From Bacteroidota bacterium (GTDB lineage Bacteria > Bacteroidota > Bacteroidia > Palsa-948), in assembly GCA_016213405.1 (NCBI GenBank), contig JACRAM010000028.1, forward strand, positions 1 through 40,923: a DNA stretch of 40,923 nt. The letters are read 5' to 3'. A program made the position numbers and the translations under genes. Below, one piece after another: positions 5,396 to 36,813 of this stretch. Under the pieces are notes generated by a model. That model was not told the origin of the DNA. It saw only the letters and a list, made by a program, of their open reading frames with translations, and did no database searches. Position 1 is the stretch's first letter; each line of letters begins with the position of its first letter.

Positions 5396-6718
5396 TCAAT
5401 ACCTCCACGAGTTAAACCTTTTCATGCCAATCAACTGGTCGTAATTGCTGCTGATGGGTTTATGGTAAACATAAATCACATAATCATTTTCGGTTTCGTA
5501 ATGCGTGCCTTCAATAAAAGCTTCATCGCCTGATTTTTCGTTGTCTTTCAGATAAACGTATTCGTAGTTGTAATAACCCTGCTTCACGTAAAGCGTTGCT
5601 TCGTACTGAGATAAAATTTTATTGTAATGCATTTTGTATTCGTTGGAATATTTCCAGTCAGTGAGCCCGCCAAAAACATAAATGCTTCCCTCTTCAACAG
5701 GTTTATCCATCGGCAGCGTAAAATGCACATACACATACTCGGCTTCGGTTTCGCTGGCGGAGGGAGAACTTTCCTGCCGCGTGATTTTATATTTTCCGTC
5801 AATGTCCTTATCCGATAGGTATTGAAAAAAGTTTCTGCGCTTGCCCGGAAAAAGATACACATGATAGTTCAGCGAATCGCTGGCAATATATTTTACATAC
5901 TCAGAATTCCACCGTAAGCTTTTGATGTCAAAGTTCCTGAACTCGTTTCCTCCCGGAAAAACATTGTCGTTATCATAATCATACGTAAGTTCATTGTCTT
6001 TTACAAAGAGCGGCTTTAGTTTGGTGATGGCATTGTCCCATCGGTCGTTCTGCATCAGCACCACTTTTAAATCCTGATACGGACTGGCGATTTGATAGCC
6101 GGGAGTCTGAATGGAGAAATCAATTTCCTGTTTATAGTTGTAATCATTCACAATAGTGGCGTGATGAATGTCAGGAATGATGTTCACGCGCTCATCCAGC
6201 ACCATGAATCTTCTTGTGATAATAAGATCGTTCTGGTCGTAATCCTTAAAAACTTTCAGAAGGTAATTTCCTGATTTGGATGGCTTGAGATTTTCTGTAG
6301 GGAAAAGTAATTCGTAATGCACGTATTTCTGAATAGTGTTTCTGGAATACTGGTAATCGTTGATGTTGTCGTCAAAAAAACCGCTGATGTATTCTGTCTG
6401 CAAAAGGCGGTCGCTCGGATTCCAGCTCGCATCACAATGAATGATGGTGAAGTGGTAGTTTTTTGATTCTGCATCCAAATCGTCAAACGAAAGTCTGAGT
6501 TTATCGGTGGAGCCGAGTTTGATGACAGGCGCTGTGAACTCCCAGTCATCTTTCTGCAACTGAACGGTGCGTATGTTTTTCTTGTAAACGAAATTATCGT
6601 AGCGAATGAAATCCGAATTGTAATATTGAGAAGTATCCTGTGCAAAACATGTAAAATGTAAAATGGCAAATGGCAGATGTAAATACAAAACTATTAACCA
6701 AATATTTTTTGCTTTCAT
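5396..6718 (-). CDS. Type IX secretion system plug-domain protein (DUF5103 family)
   Basis: A 440-residue protein with a signal peptide ending near FAQ (residue 27). The mature sequence matches the DUF5103 / T9SS plug family as I know it: an N-terminal FIRYDNFVYKKNIRTVQL strand, ITRRFMVLDERVNI in the middle, and a C-terminal VYVHFTLPMDKPVEEGSIYVFGG beta-sandwich ending RFNSWR. The family's plug protein blocks the SprA translocon channel from the periplasmic side. The gene is last in a three-gene minus-strand operon. The hydrophobic core of the signal peptide (LHLPFAILHFTC) is encoded by five tandem heptamers. Family assignment is firm; the exact T9SS role is inferred from the family. Confidence 0.85.
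   Translation of the reverse strand: MKAKNIWLIVLYLHLPFAILHFTCFAQDTSQYYNSDFIRYDNFVYKKNIRTVQLQKDDWEFTAPVIKLGSTDKLRLSFDDLDAESKNYHFTIIHCDASWNPSDRLLQTEYISGFFDDNINDYQYSRNTIQKYVHYELLFPTENLKPSKSGNYLLKVFKDYDQNDLIITRRFMVLDERVNIIPDIHHATIVNDYNYKQEIDFSIQTPGYQIASPYQDLKVVLMQNDRWDNAITKLKPLFVKDNELTYDYDNDNVFPGGNEFRNFDIKSLRWNSEYVKYIASDSLNYHVYLFPGKRRNFFQYLSDKDIDGKYKITRQESSPSASETEAEYVYVHFTLPMDKPVEEGSIYVFGGLTDWKYSNEYKMHYNKILSQYEATLYVKQGYYNYEYVYLKDNEKSGDEAFIEGTHYETENDYVIYVYHKPISSNYDQLIGMKRFNSWRY
6649..6683. repeat. Heptamer array inside a signal peptide
   Basis: Five 7-bp units on the plus strand: ATGTAAA, ATGTAAA, ATGGCAA, ATGGCAG, ATGTAAA. They encode residues of about 13-23 of the plug protein's signal peptide on the minus strand. 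The same heptamers flank the four-helix-bundle gene at 34674 and 35094. Confidence 0.85.
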
Positions 6719-17381: not shown

Positions 17382-18437
17382 ATGTCGTCATTGCGAGCGA
17401 AGCGAAGCAATCTTTTTTTACTGTTTACTGTTTACTGTTTGCTGTTTACTGTTTTTTTTTCTTCCTGCGGAAATGGCAATGAAGGACAACTTCCCACAGT
17501 AGCAAACGACTCACTTCCTGCTGATGTAGCCGCCATCAATCAGAAAATAAACAGCGACCGAAACAATGCTGATTTGTATTTTCAGCGGGCGAAAGCGTAC
17601 TTTTCTCACAAGGATATGGAACACGCTATCAGCGACATGAACATTGTTTTGAAAATTGACAGCACAAAACCCGATTACTATATTTTTATTTCAGATTTAT
17701 ATTTCACGCAAAACAAAACACGTGATACGCGCGATGCGCTGAGAAAAGCAGTAGCTGTAGATTCAACAAATGCCGGAGCGCTGATGAAGTACAGTCAGTT
17801 ATTTTATCTGCTTCGAAAATATGACACAGCCACCATTTTCATTAACAGGAGCATTCATTTCAACAACTCAAATCCGGTTGCTTATTTTCAAAAAGGAATG
17901 ATTCTGAAAGAATGGGGAGATACGGCAAATGCGATTTTAAACTTTCAGAATGCCATTGTGTTTGATCAGAAATACTATGATGCATATATGCAGTTGGGGA
18001 TTTTATTCTCTCTGAAACAGAATTCATTGGCGCTTGGATATTTTAATAACGCGTTGCTGATTAAGCCAAAAAGCACAGAAGCGTTATATGGCAAAGCAAA
18101 ATTTATGCAGGATATAAAAGAATACGACAAAGCCATTCAGGAATATGATTCACTGCTTGTGATTTCTCCTGAACATCAGGACGCTACTTTTAATATTGGA
18201 GCTATTTTGTATGAACAGAAAAAATATGACGAGGCTATGCAAAAGTTTGATTTAATAATCAAGCGGGATGCAAATTTTTATCGCGGATATTACGGGAGAG
18301 GCAGGTGTTATGAAGCAAAAGGAGAAAAACAAAAAGCGATGGATGATTATAAATATTGCCTCGCGCTCAAACCTGATTATGATTTAGCCGCCATTCAATT
18401 AGATGTTATTGGTAGAAAAGCAGGGAAGAAAATGTAA
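17382..18437 (+). CDS. TPR lipoprotein with repeat-built signal peptide
   Basis: 351 residues. Residues 1-30 form a lipoprotein signal peptide with lipobox FFSSC. Seven or so TPR units follow (ADLYFQRAKAYFSHKDMEHAISDMN, PVAYFQKGMILKEWGDTANAILNF, AYMQLGILFSLKQ, YRGYYGRGRCYEAKGEKQKAMDDY), so it is probably a periplasmic or surface scaffold. The start codon and basic region (MSSLRAKRSNL) come from the TCATTGCGAGCGAAGCG repeat, and the hydrophobic region (LFTVYCLLFTV) from five TTTACTG-type heptamers. No other in-frame ATG lies before the first TPR, so the repeat seems to provide the true start. The gene starts 2 bp after recA. Its specific role is unknown. Confidence 0.85.
   Translation: MSSLRAKRSNLFLLFTVYCLLFTVFFSSCGNGNEGQLPTVANDSLPADVAAINQKINSDRNNADLYFQRAKAYFSHKDMEHAISDMNIVLKIDSTKPDYYIFISDLYFTQNKTRDTRDALRKAVAVDSTNAGALMKYSQLFYLLRKYDTATIFINRSIHFNNSNPVAYFQKGMILKEWGDTANAILNFQNAIVFDQKYYDAYMQLGILFSLKQNSLALGYFNNALLIKPKSTEALYGKAKFMQDIKEYDKAIQEYDSLLVISPEHQDATFNIGAILYEQKKYDEAMQKFDLIIKRDANFYRGYYGRGRCYEAKGEKQKAMDDYKYCLALKPDYDLAAIQLDVIGRKAGKKM
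17386..17412. repeat. CGTCATTGCGAG...GAAGCAATC repeat
   Basis: ATTGC and GCAAT form the outer stem around GAGCGAAGCGAA. This kind of repeat is common in bacterial genomes and often appears as an SSLRAKRSNL peptide. Here it forms the start of a lipoprotein gene. Confidence 0.8.
17417..17451. repeat. TTTACTG heptamer array in a signal peptide
   Basis: Five units: TTTACTG three times, TTTGCTG, TTTACTG, then a T-run. Encodes the hydrophobic core of the TPR lipoprotein's signal peptide. The same unit occurs at 29635-29655. Confidence 0.9.
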
Positions 18438-25503: not shown

Positions 25504-25519
25504 GCTGCAAAGGAAAAAC

Positions 25520-25547
25520 TAATGACTAATGACTAATGACTAATGAC
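25520..25547. repeat. Four perfect TAATGAC heptamers
   Basis: Four identical 7-bp units, starting 16 bp upstream of the symporter ATG. Confidence 0.9.
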
Positions 25548-25694
25548 TCGCCTTCTTTGAACAGAGTTGTTGACAGAGGAGAAGTGCTCGGGATGGGAAT
25601 TGAACCAAAGACACCTTTTTACATAGTAGTTTCAATAGGAAAAAACATATATGCAACAGTTCGTATTGTTCAAGCAAAAGCAACTGATGGATAA
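25536..25694 (+). CDS. Possible 52-residue ORF, low confidence
   Basis: ATG inside the TAATGAC array, stop TAA inside the 21-bp array. The translation begins MTNDSPSLNRVVDRGEV and continues LGMGIEPKTPFYIVVSIGK to NIYATVRIVQAKATDG. The middle looks protein-like (VVSIGKNIYATVRIV is strand-like), but there is no known family and no promoter or ribosome site. It may be the decayed N-terminal part of a gene whose 3' half became the 21-bp array. Confidence 0.25.
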   Translation: MTNDSPSLNRVVDRGEVLGMGIEPKTPFYIVVSIGKNIYATVRIVQAKATDG

Positions 25695-25880
25695 GCGAAA
25701 GTTAAAATCGCATGAACGAAAGTTAATGTTGTGTAAACAACAGTTATTATTCTATAAACGATTGTTAATGTCATAGAAGCAATAGTTAATGTTGTGTAAG
25801 CAAAAGTAAATGATGAATGAACAACATTTAATGTTGGATAAGCAAAAGCAAATGTTCACCCAAGCATTTTTGAGTTTGGA
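25650..25880. repeat. Degenerate 21-bp tandem array, 10-11 units
   Basis: Units start at 25650, 25671, 25692, 25713, 25734, 25755, 25776, 25797, 25818, 25839 and weakly 25860, with no length change. The consensus is TAAGCAAAAG followed by TTAATGTTGTG. Units share the CAAAAGTTAATG core but differ at several positions each. A weak earlier unit may lie at 25629. 21 bp is two helical turns or seven codons. Confidence 0.88.
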
Positions 25881-29562: not shown

Positions 29563-29566
29563 TTTT

Positions 29567-29660
29567 CAGTAAACAGTAATCAGTAAACAATAAACAATAG
29601 ACAATAAACAACAGACAATATTGGCTGTTGTTTGTTTACTGCCTACTGTTTACTGCCTAC
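29567..29660. repeat. Large inverted heptamer array between purA and histone-like gene
   Basis: Left arm: CAGTAAA, CAGTAAT, CAGTAAA, CAATAAA, CAATAGA, CAATAAA, CAACAGA, CAATATT (29567-29622). Right arm: TTTACTG, CCTACTG, TTTACTG, CCTAC (29635-29660) preceded by GGCTGTTGTTTG. The arms can fold into a long hairpin in the purA leader. Confidence 0.88.
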
Positions 29661-32415: not shown

Positions 32416-32482
32416 AGTTAATGGTTAATCGTTAGTTGTTATTCGGGAATGTTACGGTTAACTATTAACGATTAACAATTTC
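32416..32482. repeat. Inverted heptamer arrays abutting the coaBC start
   Basis: Left arm AGTTAAT, GGTTAAT, CGTTAGT, TGTTATT (32416-32443). Right arm CGGTTAA, CTATTAA, CGATTAA, CAATTTC (32455-32482), ending at the base before the coaBC ATG. The arms are largely complementary and could hide the start region in a hairpin. Confidence 0.82.
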
Positions 32483-33724
32483 ATGCTTGCAGGAAAAAAT
32501 ATTCTTCTCGGAGTTACAGGCAGCATTGCCGCCTACAAGAGTGCATTTCTCATAAGGCTGTTAGTCAAAGCAGGCGCCAAGGTGAAAGTGGTGGTGACTC
32601 CCGCTTCTAAAGATTTTATAACGCCACTCACTCTTTCCACGCTTTCAAAAAATCCTGTTTACTCAGAATTTATTTCCAACCAACAGGGAGAGTGGAACAA
32701 TCATGTTGATCTTGCGATGTGGGCAGATTATATTCTGATTGCTCCTGCTACTGCAAATACAATGGCGAAAATGGCAAACGGCATTTGCGATAATCTTTTG
32801 CTGGCTGTTTATCTTTCAGCTAAATCTCCTGTTGTAATTGCACCTGCTATGGATTTGGATATGTATCAGCATCCGACAACGAAAGAGAATCTTAAGAAAC
32901 TAAAAACATTCGGAAATATTATTATTCCTGCCGACACAGGCGAACTTGCCAGCGGACTGGAAGGCGAAGGCAGAATGGCAGAACCCGAAGCGATCGTTCA
33001 GTTTCTTTCTGAACATATAAAAAAAAAGTCCCCGCTAAGCGGTAAAAAAGCGCTCGTTACAGCCGGACCTACTTACGAAGCCATTGACCCTGTACGTTTC
33101 ATCGGAAATCATTCATCCGGGAAAATGGGCTTTGAAATTGCCGAGCAACTGGCGAAGAGTGGGGCAGAGGTAACGTTAGTGTGCGGACCAAATGCTCTCT
33201 CATCAAAAAATAATTCCATTAAAAGAATTGATATTACTTCAGCAGATGAAATGCATCAACAGTGCATGAAGAGTTCAAAACATTCAGATATTATTGTGAT
33301 GTCAGCAGCCGTGGCAGATTTTAAACCAAAGGTTACGGTTACGGTTAAGGTTAAGAAAGAAGAGGGGAAATTTAACTCAATTGAATTATTTCCTACTAAA
33401 GATATTCTTGCTGATCTCGGGAAAAGAAAGAACGGAAGTCTGCTGGTTGGATTTGCGCTGGAAACCGAAAATGAAATTCAAAACGCTAAAAAGAAACTAC
33501 ACAATAAAAACCTCGACTTCATCGTTCTCAACTCGCCATCAGACACAACAGGGTTTACGCACGATACAAACAAAATAACTATCATCGGAAGCCCATCTCC
33601 AACTCTTCCCCAAGGGAAGAGAGCAAAAGGCAAAAAAGAAATAATTGTTAAAAGATTTGAATTAATGACTAAAGTAGAATGTGCAAATATTATTGTAAAT
33701 GAAATTATTAATCATCTAAAATAA
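32483..33724 (+). CDS. coaBC: Bifunctional phosphopantothenoylcysteine decarboxylase/synthase
   Basis: 413 residues, two domains, for steps two and three of CoA synthesis from pantothenate: CoaB ligates cysteine, CoaC decarboxylates. The N-terminal flavoprotein CoaC half has VTGSIAAYKS, catalytic His74 in NNHVDLA, APATANTMAKMANG, and SGLEGEGRMAEP. In E. coli that last motif holds a Cys; here it is Ser, which I recall as frequent in Bacteroidetes. The CoaB half starts near residue 185 with KKALVTAGPTYEAIDPVRFIGNHSSGKMG and ends about 413. A late segment, SPSPTLPQGKRAKGKK, is encoded by a palindrome at 33589 and looks inserted. The stop overlaps the porD ATG (TAATG). Confidence 0.95.
   Translation: MLAGKNILLGVTGSIAAYKSAFLIRLLVKAGAKVKVVVTPASKDFITPLTLSTLSKNPVYSEFISNQQGEWNNHVDLAMWADYILIAPATANTMAKMANGICDNLLLAVYLSAKSPVVIAPAMDLDMYQHPTTKENLKKLKTFGNIIIPADTGELASGLEGEGRMAEPEAIVQFLSEHIKKKSPLSGKKALVTAGPTYEAIDPVRFIGNHSSGKMGFEIAEQLAKSGAEVTLVCGPNALSSKNNSIKRIDITSADEMHQQCMKSSKHSDIIVMSAAVADFKPKVTVTVKVKKEEGKFNSIELFPTKDILADLGKRKNGSLLVGFALETENEIQNAKKKLHNKNLDFIVLNSPSDTTGFTHDTNKITIIGSPSPTLPQGKRAKGKKEIIVKRFELMTKVECANIIVNEIINHLK
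33589..33626. repeat. CTTCCC-type palindrome in coaBC (forward copy)
   Basis: AAGCCCATCTCC, then CTCTTCCC (33603-33610), loop CAA, GGGAAGAG (33614-33621), a perfect 8-bp stem. Encodes the SPTLPQGKRA segment. Its inverted partner lies at 33778-33811 in porD. Confidence 0.85.
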
Positions 33725-34668
33725 TGTCAACCAGAAAGAAGATATTTTTATTTTGCAATAGTATCGCATTGTTTTTTCTCCCTTCCCTTTGGGAAGGGAA
33801 GGGGATGGGCTTTTGTTTCGCCCAGGAACTCAATTGTTCCGTGCAGGTAATTTCTCCGCAGTTGAATAACTCTGCTGACAAAAAAATACTCCAAACGCTT
33901 CAGCAGTCCATTTTTGAATTCATGAATAACCGCAAATGGACGAACGATGTTTTTCAGCAGGATGAGCGGATTGAGTGCAGCGTGGTGATTACCATTACAG
34001 CAAAATCATCTGATGTGTTTGATGGAAGCATACAAGTGCAGGCGCGCAGGCCTGTTTACAAATCCTCGTACAATTCTCTTTTGTTAAACGTGCTGGATAA
34101 AAATCTTTCTTTCAGGTATGTGGAGTACCAGCCGCTGGAATTTGTAGAAAATACTTTTACAGCCAATCTCACCTCCGTTCTCGCCTATTATGCCAACGTA
34201 ATAATCGGAGCTGATTACGACAGTTTTTCTTTGGAAGGCGGAACGCCCTACTATCAGAAAGCCCAGGCCATTGTTTCGAATGCGCAGAGCGCCTCTGAAA
34301 AAGGATGGAAGTTTAATGAAGACGACCATAACCGCTATTGGATTGTAGAAAATATTCTGAACTCTACTTTCAAGCCGCTTCGCGAGTGCATGTATAAATA
34401 TCACCGTACGGGCTTTGATGCGATGGCGGAGGATTTGATAACAGGGAGAGCCACTGTGCTTTCTTCGCTTGAACTTCTGAAAAAGGTTTACGATTCAAAA
34501 CCCAACTCCTACAGTTTAACGCTGTTCTTTCTTGCCAAAGCCGATGAAATTGTAAACCTTTTCACGCTTGCGGAGCCAGCCGAGAAAACAAAACTACTTG
34601 CACTGGTAAATGAAATTGATCCCGCCAACAACACCAAGTACAACAAGATTAATCAGAGCAAGGAGTGA
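33724..34668 (+). CDS. porD: Type IX secretion system protein PorD (DUF4835)
   Basis: 314 residues. The mature region, beginning QELNCSVQVISPQLNNSADKKILQTLQQSIFEFMNNRKWT, is the DUF4835/PorD family signature, followed by FDGSIQVQARRPVYKSSYNSLLLNVLD and a helical C-terminal half. NCBI-style naming links it to the T9SS, but the precise role is poorly known. The normal signal peptide seems interrupted: FLFCNSIALFF and FCFAQ are separated by LPSLWEGKGMG, encoded by a palindrome at 33778. A shorter hydrophobic core remains on either side, so export may be affected. It overlaps coaBC by one base. Confidence 0.85.
   Translation: MSTRKKIFLFCNSIALFFLPSLWEGKGMGFCFAQELNCSVQVISPQLNNSADKKILQTLQQSIFEFMNNRKWTNDVFQQDERIECSVVITITAKSSDVFDGSIQVQARRPVYKSSYNSLLLNVLDKNLSFRYVEYQPLEFVENTFTANLTSVLAYYANVIIGADYDSFSLEGGTPYYQKAQAIVSNAQSASEKGWKFNEDDHNRYWIVENILNSTFKPLRECMYKYHRTGFDAMAEDLITGRATVLSSLELLKKVYDSKPNSYSLTLFFLAKADEIVNLFTLAEPAEKTKLLALVNEIDPANNTKYNKINQSKE
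33778..33811. repeat. CTTCCC-type palindrome in porD (reverse copy)
   Basis: CCCTTCCC (33780-33787), loop TTT, GGGAAGGG (33791-33798), a perfect 8-bp stem, then GGGGATGGGCT. The complement begins AGCCCATCCCC, matching the coaBC copy in the opposite direction. Confidence 0.85.
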
Positions 34669-34673
34669 TTTTC

Positions 34674-34708
34674 ATGTAAGATGTAAGAGGGCAGATGGCA
34701 AATGGCAG
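34674..34708. repeat. Heptamer array, left flank of the four-helix-bundle gene
   Basis: Five units: ATGTAAG, ATGTAAG, AGGGCAG, ATGGCAA, ATGGCAG. It ends 8 bp before the 3' end of the minus-strand gene. Confidence 0.9.
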
Positions 34709-34716
34709 AATTTATA

Positions 34717-35088
34717 TTAACGATTTGGATTTTCTGTTGAGGATTTTTTAATCGAGCCAAATATTTTCTTTAACTCTATACCTTCATTAATGAATTCTAC
34801 AAAATCTTTTATATATTTTTCTTCAGGATATAATTCTTTCAATACTCTTAGCCAATAAACACTTTCTCTGGATTCACGATAGCAGATGGAAATTTTGTTT
34901 GCGAAATCTCTTTTTGAAATAGCTCCCTGTGCTTCTTCGTAATTCGAGCCAATGGATAGCCCGGCTCTTGCTAATTGACCTTTTGGAATCCGATAGATGT
35001 AATCATCGGGAAGCGTTTTTAGAAATTTCAAAATTCTTACTCCGAAGCGAAAAGTTCTATCTAAGAGTTCCTGTGTTTTTGGATTCAT
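34717..35088 (-). CDS. Four-helix-bundle protein (S23/IVP family)
   Basis: A 123-residue helical protein: LLDRTFRFGVRILKFLKTLP, then the family signature IPKGQLARAGLSIGSNYEEAQGA and KISICYRESRESVYWLRVLKELY. This is the 23S rRNA intervening-sequence-type protein family, found both in rRNA insertions and as stand-alone genes. No catalytic site is known. Here it lies between porD and the peptide transporter, not in rRNA, and is closely framed by two heptamer arrays in inverted orientation. Its function is not known; the framing suggests that the gene and arrays may form one mobile or formerly mobile unit. Confidence 0.9.
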   Translation of the reverse strand: MNPKTQELLDRTFRFGVRILKFLKTLPDDYIYRIPKGQLARAGLSIGSNYEEAQGAISKRDFANKISICYRESRESVYWLRVLKELYPEEKYIKDFVEFINEGIELKKIFGSIKKSSTENPNR

Positions 35089-35093
35089 GTTAA

Positions 35094-35135
35094 ATCGCCT
35101 TTCCCCTCTGCCCTTTGCCCTCTTACATTTTACAT
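35094..35135. repeat. Heptamer array, right flank of the four-helix-bundle gene (inverted)
   Basis: Six units: ATCGCCT, TTCCCCT, CTGCCCT, TTGCCCT, CTTACAT, TTTACAT. The complement gives ATGTAAA, ATGTAAG, AGGGCAA, AGGGCAG, matching the left array in reverse. It ends 5 bp before the transporter's stop codon. Confidence 0.9.
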
Positions 35136-35139
35136 CACA

Positions 35140-36813
35140 TTACCTCACTCCATGCATCATCTTCTTCAGCATAGGTGTCAGTGCAAAAAGCAGTGACCCT
35201 GCAACACCGCATAAGATTACGAATACCAAAAAGAATTCGAAAAGATTGTGAATGGTGAATCCGGCAAATACTGGATAGTTGATACTGATCTTGCTTTCAG
35301 ACATTTTTGCTAATTGGTCAGCGCTGAGCGTGACCGTTTTGTCCAACACCGCCTGCAAATCAATACCCAAGTCTTTTGCTTTTACAAACTGTTCGCCAGT
35401 CGCTGGTAATATTGAACCGAGTGTTCCGGCTAATGCATAACCCGATGCGTTTGACAAAAAGAATACCCCGTACAACAAAGAAGCAAACCGTTTAGGCGCA
35501 AGTTTGCCTACTAATGACAATCCTATAGGAGATAAGCACAATTCGCCTAATGTTTGGATCAAATAAAGAAGTATGAGCCACTTGATAGCAAGCATGCCGC
35601 TTGTGCCAAGGTCTTTTACATTGAACGCTATAATGAGATAACTCAATGCGATCATAAACAATCCGATGGACTGCTTGACCGGAGAGAGTGGTTCTCTTCC
35701 CTTTGCTCTGAGTTTGTCCCACAGAATGCTGAAAGGCACTGCGAGCATAACCACAAATATCCCGTTGAATATTTGAATCATTGATGCGGGCATTTGCCAG
35801 CCAAATAAAAATGTTCTGTCTGTTTGATTATCTGCAATAAAGGTTAATGAAGAACCTGCTTGTTCGAATGCCGCCCAGAAGAAAATAATGAAAAAGGATA
35901 TTGTATAAATGACCAGAATCCGGTCGCGCTCAATTTTGGTCAGTGAACTATCAGAAATAATTAATCCGGCAAGTGTAAGACCACTGGCATAGATAAGGGA
36001 GTAAATATAATTCTGACCGAATACAAAATGAATTGTACATCCCAATCCGATAAATGCGAGTGCTGCAATCACCTGAGCTGTAACAGAGAATTTTGCCTTC
36101 TGTGATTCACCTTCTTCAAAATCAGAAGAAATACTCTTTGATGGCAGGTCACCAAGCGGTCTTCCTTCAGGGGAGACAACATATTTATCTTTAAGAAAGA
36201 AAAAAGTAATCGTTCCTAAAATCATGGCGCATCCTGCGGCAAGAAATCCCCATTTGAATACATAAACATCTCTCACTCCGGCAGCATCCACATGATCGCC
36301 TACCATAGGACAAATAAATTGTCCTAACAAAGCACCCAAATTGATGCCCATATAGAAAATGGTGAAAGCTGAATCCAGTTTACTCTTTTCCTGTTTCGGA
36401 TAAAGACTGCCCACCATGCTCGAGATGTTAGGTTTAAACATTCCGTTACCCAAAATAATTATACCCAAGGCAATATAGAGCAAGGTTCTGGCAAGTTCCA
36501 GATTACCGCCAAAAATAGAGGCACTGGTAAACAGCAGTAACTGACCAATTGCCATTAAAGAACCGCCAAGCATTATGCAATAGCGGTTTCCGAGAAACCT
36601 GTCGGAAATAAATCCGCCCAGCATGGGAGTGAGATAACACAAACCTAAAAATCCTCCATATATAATTGAAGATTGTTCCTTGCTCATCATGAGCGCGCTT
36701 ACGATGAAAAGCGTGAGCACTGCACGCATTCCGTAAAAATTGAAACGCTCCCACATCTCTGTGGCGAACAGAACAAAAAGTCCTTTGGGGTGTCCTTGTT
36801 TTACTTCAGTCAT
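35140..36813 (-). CDS. POT/PTR-family proton-dependent peptide transporter
   Basis: A 557-residue MFS transporter with about 14 helices. The start, GHPKGLFVLFATEMWERFNFYGMRAVLTLFIV, contains the E-x-x-E-R-F-x-Y-Y-type motif of POT transporters (proton and peptide binding), here EMWERFNFYG. YGGFLGLCYLTPMLGGFISDRFLGNRYCIMLGG is the MFS loop A region, and FTIFYMGINLGALLGQFICPMVG is the second POT signature. It takes up di- and tripeptides with protons. The extra helices and soluble loop around residue 205-235 are usual for the bacterial POT subgroup. An inverted heptamer-type array lies upstream. Confidence 0.93.
   Translation of the reverse strand: MTEVKQGHPKGLFVLFATEMWERFNFYGMRAVLTLFIVSALMMSKEQSSIIYGGFLGLCYLTPMLGGFISDRFLGNRYCIMLGGSLMAIGQLLLFTSASIFGGNLELARTLLYIALGIIILGNGMFKPNISSMVGSLYPKQEKSKLDSAFTIFYMGINLGALLGQFICPMVGDHVDAAGVRDVYVFKWGFLAAGCAMILGTITFFFLKDKYVVSPEGRPLGDLPSKSISSDFEEGESQKAKFSVTAQVIAALAFIGLGCTIHFVFGQNYIYSLIYASGLTLAGLIISDSSLTKIERDRILVIYTISFFIIFFWAAFEQAGSSLTFIADNQTDRTFLFGWQMPASMIQIFNGIFVVMLAVPFSILWDKLRAKGREPLSPVKQSIGLFMIALSYLIIAFNVKDLGTSGMLAIKWLILLYLIQTLGELCLSPIGLSLVGKLAPKRFASLLYGVFFLSNASGYALAGTLGSILPATGEQFVKAKDLGIDLQAVLDKTVTLSADQLAKMSESKISINYPVFAGFTIHNLFEFFLVFVILCGVAGSLLFALTPMLKKMMHGVR

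Follow-up and report, generated by a model that had tools for sequence, protein, structure and literature searches.

To our knowledge, no function has been assigned to the S23/IVP protein family, structures of which have been solved since 2006, and we know of no catalytic or nuclease activity in an IVP protein. RAYT proteins, which accompany REP palindromes, are HuH transposase-like nucleases, and Avd proteins are pentamers that bind nucleic acid. The intervening sequences (IVSs) of 23S rRNA genes lie in hairpins, and Xcc0516, an IVP protein of known structure, is a toroidal homopentamer (PMC4990558). Heptameric simple-sequence repeats have been described in Xanthomonas (GGGAATC), Nostoc (GGGGA(C/T)T) and Beggiatoaceae (TAACTGA) (PMC4692102, PMC4679880); those of Xanthomonas are orphans, often form inverted pairs, and mostly comprise four units (PMC4692102). 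Neither of these two papers names an associated protein, or contains S23 or intervening sequences in its text, and a literature search for IVP together with heptamer or tandem repeats found no publication that links them, subscription journals being poorly covered.

In the stretch of DNA analysed here (‘the window’; 40,923 nucleotides), an IVP/S23-family gene, encoding a four-helix bundle of 123 amino acids, occupies positions 34717..35088 of the minus strand and is framed by two arrays of heptamers. The left arm (34674..34708, plus strand; arm alignment and TRF) comprises five units, ATGTAAG ATGTAAG AGGGCAG ATGGCAA ATGGCAG. The right arm (35098..35139, minus strand; arm alignment) comprises six, inverted with respect to the left and reading TGTGATG TAAAATG TAAGAGG GCAAAGG GCAGAGG GGAAAGG on the minus strand. 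Gene and arms together form a cassette (34669..35139) bounded by the stop codons of two genes that converge on it, a DUF4835/porD-like gene (33724-34668, plus strand) and a gene for a POT transporter (35140-36813, minus strand). The left arm is 5 bp past the porD stop codon and 8 bp from the 3' end of the IVP gene; the right is 9 bp from the IVP start codon and flush against the stop codon of the transporter. A sequence-only reading of the window had proposed that arrays of five and six units, in opposite orientation, flank an S23/IVP-type gene, and this proves correct: the arms form an inverted repeat of 32 nt with 5 mismatches, and their score of 22 was reached by none of 20,000 shuffles. 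Of the two gene-to-array distances it gave, 8 bp holds at one end, but the other, at the start codon, is 9 bp rather than 5 bp. When flanks were compared between IVP loci, the window arm pair (score 27) exceeded all of the ~2,000 mismatched pairs. The inverted-array frame around the gene is confirmed as real, and as one case of a general architecture. A gene-less array of the same vocabulary (ATGTAAA, ATGGCAA, ATGGCAG) lies at 6645..6683 on the plus strand of the window, and no Rfam match was found in the window.

The gene belongs to its family. It matches PF05635 (23S_rRNA_IVP) at 5.9e-14 (52.6 bits; curated cut-off 33.8) and TIGR02436 (‘four helix bundle protein’) at 4.5e-20 (71.9 bits; cut-off 24). 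An AlphaFold2 model of the protein has four helices (pLDDT 92.1), and Foldseek matches this model to BT_0352 (2rld; TM 0.77-0.79) and Xcc0516 (2gsc; TM 0.67-0.76), entries with five chains each, and also to Avd of diversity-generating retroelements (4dwl, 8ub7). Among the Pfam-scanned neighbours of the gene at 26-41 kb there is no transposase, recombinase or reverse transcriptase. Pairs of close IVP copies have low dN, and dN/dS is 0.05-0.10 where it can be computed; for close copies within one genome, dS is about 1 or saturated. With synonymous sites at or near saturation and dN still low, purifying selection on the protein is strong. Judged by this divergence, the copies within one genome are old, and recent jumps were not caught.

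The genome from which the window comes (G000; 3.65 Mb) has 23 PF05635 genes. Its six congeners have 2-14 each and genomes of other families 1-12, and at least one was present in all 20 related genomes searched. We surveyed the flanks of 79 IVP genes from the seven congeneric genomes, scoring each upstream flank against the reverse complement of the downstream flank, with a threshold of at least 18, and compared them with the flanks of control genes. Inverted flanks reached the threshold at 65% of the IVP genes of G000 and 61% of those in the genus, and at 1.6% of the 613 other G000 genes that served as controls. The consensus heptamers of the two arms were alike, allowing for rotation and one change, at 35 of the 79 loci, versus 2.1% of mismatched arm pairs; arms of the same heptamer in direct orientation occurred at only three. 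The mean self-match of aligned arms peaks at periods 7 and 14 (0.50-0.53; most other periods give about 0.27). The median arm alignment spans 33 nt, and arrays of six units are far fewer than arrays of five (7 vs 34). The unit order common to both arms is only weakly conserved. A minority of IVP arms have 8-bp units, and some loci have no recognisable arms, or have them in direct orientation. One IVP copy with clear arms (L020; G000:C69:17324-17614) carries two in-frame stops and is a decaying cassette. An AATACR motif, considered as a further part of the element, precedes the start codon at 30 of the 79 loci in this genus and at 1 of 77 elsewhere, and was rejected as a general component.

The sequence-only reading had raised the idea of a mobile cassette edged by arrays, to be checked by seeking copies at other sites and porD-transporter junctions without one, and to be refuted if relatives kept the gene at the same place without arrays. 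Copies there are, most of the 23 genes of G000 having inverted arrays of their own. In five congeners (G001; G002, on two contigs; G003; G004; G005), porD is followed by a POT gene across a gap of 80-130 bp that contains neither gene nor array; in the sixth (G006), a different gene lies downstream of porD. Because the junction is empty in five congeners, the window cassette is lineage-specific. The refuting arrangement was not seen. The idea, with gene and arms moving together, is supported by this insertion/absence polymorphism and by same-heptamer paralogues at unrelated sites, but no transposition event was observed.

Elsewhere, the orthologous junction is empty for about ten other IVP insertions, and several empty sites have no hairpin whatever. 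In the nuo operon, one junction occurs in three states: with a cassette (GTAGGCA) in G000, with a gene-less hairpin drawn from that vocabulary in G003, and empty in G002. At another junction of the operon, G002 and G003 have cassettes belonging to one clade, and G000 and G004 have none. Cassettes are intergenic and flush with stop codons, and leave genes unbroken. No target-site duplication was evident by eye between occupied and empty sites, which have diverged. In each of two operons, IVP cassettes of different congeners occupy adjacent junctions, as if by local hopping: L002 and L113 in one that looks by eye like a fatty-acid oxidation operon, and L005, L095 and L106 in nuo.

The heptamer ‘word’ of a cassette follows the lineage of its protein. 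Among IVP proteins at least 60% identical, 58% of pairs have a heptamer in common, as do 43% of those without a shared flanking gene, versus about 3% of unrelated pairs. Sharing between non-syntenic pairs at least 40% identical exceeds chance (permutation p 0.001), and 77 further loci, drawn independently from GTDB species, give p 0.003 for non-syntenic pairs at least 60% identical; these permutations ignore phylogeny, and the p-values are indicative only. Across genera, the heptamer is common to 23-50% of related IVP pairs versus 6%. Thus ATTTAGG goes with a clade marked by MxKEELKKRT (L021, L022, L112, L131), AAGTTCC with one marked by EYKRDLKERL (L019, L122, L134), AATTGAY with one marked by KENVIKDKSYQFA (L098, L108, L127), and GTTTACG with L007 and L008. 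Dispersed paralogues in one genome can bear the same word (L021 and L022, ATTTAGG; L007 and L008, GTTTACG). A classical IS or MITE, with one terminal inverted repeat for all copies, was rejected, the heptamer varying between IVP lineages.

The explanation that we judge probable, though far from settled, is that the window feature is an autonomous copy of a transposase-less, REPIN/RAYT-like element, the lineage-specific ends of which are recognised by a ring of IVP subunits; both the binding and mobility in action are inferred. Such an element would have two parts, each of them observed here: one gene for an S23/IVP four-helix-bundle protein, and a pair of arms, each of about 4-6 heptamers, in opposite orientation. 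The protein would form a pentameric ring (solved for Xcc0516, inferred for the window protein) specific for the heptamers found in its lineage. That the ring reads about five of them, plausibly one unit per subunit, is an inference suggested by the ~33-nt arms, the drop in array length after five units, and the co-variation of protein and heptamer. The gene-plus-arms unit, and shorter gene-less hairpins of the same word, would spread into intergenic gaps beside stop codons, a step for which presence/absence and dispersed copies are in evidence. Since the cassette encodes no nuclease, and the scanned neighbours include no transposase or reverse transcriptase, copying would need host enzymes, which may act on the hairpin formed by the arms to copy and insert the DNA. 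The IVSs of 23S rRNA would, by the same inference, be an rRNA-borne branch of these elements. Weighing against this account are the lack of a known catalytic activity or a neighbouring transposase, the age of the copies, the absence of an evident target-site duplication, the loose link of gene-less array counts to resident IVP genes, the loci with missing, direct or 8-bp-unit arms, and the weak conservation of unit order.

Could the arrays instead be regulatory? They might be RNA or DNA binding sites for IVP at gene ends, affecting mRNA stability or expression, with the arms serving autoregulation and the cassette moving by ordinary recombination only. The arms do lie between stop and start codons, the window cassette transcript folds with its two arms paired (z -3.5), and the structural relative Avd acts in an RNA-protein complex. 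Strong purifying selection on the protein, and its co-variation with the heptamer, likewise speak for such a regulator. Regulation alone, however, leaves unexplained the 23 dispersed copies, the lineage-specific insertion, and the same-word gene-less hairpin found at the very junction that a cassette occupies in another congener. Nor did G-U wobble asymmetry reveal a signature of selection for a sense-strand RNA stem (136 vs 180). We consider this account unlikely, but not so weak that it can be ignored.

Most arrays have no gene. A census of 800 kb of G000 found 127 arrays of period 7, versus 4-42 for periods 5, 6 and 8-11; 121 gene-less arrays were counted, outnumbering IVP loci about ten to one, and many form hairpins whose arms are separated by a few tens of bp. 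Their words match the arms of the genome's own IVP genes exactly in 25.6% of cases, the corresponding figures being 4.2% when the words are letter-shuffled and 13.5% when as many IVP words are taken from other genomes. The commonest gene-less word, AGATGGC, is that of the window gene. Just two of the words, that of the window gene and GTTTAC, reach their highest count in the genome with the matching IVP. A strict tie between resident IVP and gene-less array number was rejected, as it fails for AAGTYCC and AATTGAY: G006 has 15 matches to AAGTYCC and no such IVP, and G004 has the IVP and one match. Gene-less array counts are tied only loosely to the resident IVP of the same word. Within the window, gene-less hairpins lie at 29566-29660 (TAAACAG/CTGTTTA type) and 32417-32480 (GTTAATC/GATTAAC). 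Other repeats there are an inverted pair of heptamers at 10-76 (CCAAGAA/TTCTTGG), arrays at 17414-17455 (TTTACTG, five units) and 25514-25550 (ACTAATG, four units), and, inside a 636-bp intergenic region, a degenerate tandem array of 6.5 copies at 25721-25856, the 21-bp unit of which (AGTTAATGTTGTATAAACAAC) is three heptamers long. Another palindromic intergenic repeat family in the genus (cccctctctacttggtagagagggg, ctccccattggggagg), unrelated to the heptamers, occurs in L240 after porD, at about 4080-4200 of L119, and at G000:C125:111400-111490.

This abundance invites the view that the arrays came first: hairpins would arise independently of IVP, by replication slippage or templated hairpin repair, and IVP genes would later enter their loops, as they do in the helices of 23S rRNA. 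The ten-to-one excess of gene-less arrays, the presence of arrays in genomes without a matching IVP, and the location of 23S IVSs in hairpins (PMC4990558) all fit. A pre-existing local hairpin would not, however, predict that the same heptamer comes with related IVPs at unrelated sites, and several empty sites have no hairpin from which to begin; we hold this order of events to be less credible again. That the frames are merely ordinary intergenic DNA—terminators and chance repeats beside a stable host gene, gene-end inverted repeats being common in bacteria—is excluded by the controls for all practical purposes, period 7 standing far above other periods, control genes lacking the frame, and the gene being missing from the porD-POT junction in congeners.

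The architecture extends beyond this genus. On cyanobacterial plasmids, IVP genes lie within inverted heptamer frames (Nostoc, AGTAGGG; Calothrix, GGTGTAG; Geminocystis, GGGAARA; and Stanieria), and such frames also occur at IVP genes in Patescibacteria, Atribacterota, Clostridia, Selenomonadales, Geobacter and other Proteobacteria. A genome picked for its Xanthomonas-type GGGAATC arrays has one IVP gene; it is framed by inverted GGGAATC arrays and lies between accB- and accC-like sequence (neighbours named by eye). On a plasmid of Pseudanabaena galeata (L150, 801-1160), an IVP gene stands between cas6 and cas4; its heptamer arrays (AAAAGCT/AAAAGCC) are long, and direct rather than inverted. 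The CRISPR-linked 23S rRNA IVP hits listed in PMC10910872 may be explained by cassette insertion. A wider form of the proposal is that IVP cassettes are a widespread class of mobile element without a transposase, their heptamer arrays being read by a pentameric ring protein, with one word per lineage; that most bacterial heptameric simple-sequence repeats, those of Xanthomonas and Nostoc and related STRR-type repeats included, are their gene-less offspring; and that 23S IVSs are their rRNA-borne branch. This we put forward tentatively, and would sooner doubt than assert. It would join the orphan S23/IVP family to the orphan heptamer repeats of intergenic DNA, over-represented in many bacteria and until now without a maker. 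The correspondence between protein and heptamer gives each IVP protein a predicted target sequence, with many independent pairs; if it holds, it would amount to a new recognition code and reveal a new route by which short DNA enters the gaps between genes.

A few of the 613 control genes were themselves strongly framed, and two of these encode GxxExxY proteins (TIGR04256, PF13366; PD-(D/E)XK superfamily), at G000:C125:115815-116213 (plus strand) and G000:C68:42215-42607 (minus strand). G000 has 11 copies, and congeneric genomes have 2-11 each. Inverted arms scored at least 18 at 32% of the 28 loci tested, with motifs of ACGAATT, GCAAAGA and CGCAGAGAA types spaced 8-11 bp apart, not 7. GxxExxY proteins are another orphan family, framed much as IVP is, and perhaps one with a nuclease.

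How, then, do IVP cassettes compare with the systems with which we began? Diversity-generating retroelements share a fold, the structure search placing Avd with the window protein; Avd, however, acts with a reverse transcriptase and template and variable repeats, and this identity was rejected since the neighbours scanned at 26-41 kb include no reverse transcriptase. Heptameric simple-sequence repeats share the intergenic 7-bp arrays, often in inverted pairs. The likeness to REPIN/RAYT systems is one of organisation: one gene with inverted short repeats, many gene-less paired intergenic copies, and a repeat type tied to protein lineage (see PMC3116915). One defining feature of those systems is present here too: the repeat that frames the gene in inverted copies also occurs on its own. 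Identity with RAYT (HuH/Y1 transposase-related) was rejected, the IVP protein matching PF05635 only and having a four-helix-bundle fold; the cassette differs in that bundle, which has no known nuclease activity, and in its 7-bp arrays. The 23S rRNA IVSs of Leptospira, Coxiella and Brucella resemble it in encoding a PF05635 protein inside inverted repeats, in a total length of about 430-470 bp, in sporadic distribution, and in old suggestions of mobility (PMC4990558). Unlike them, the window cassette does not lie in a 23S rRNA helix but between protein genes (porD-like and POT), and its repeats are heptamer arrays; IVP cassettes differ further in their many copies per genome, gene-less relatives and lineage-specific heptamers. 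Among known systems, the nearest to the IVP cassette is the IVP element of 23S rRNA, here in a free-standing form and with an organisation like that of REPIN/RAYT.
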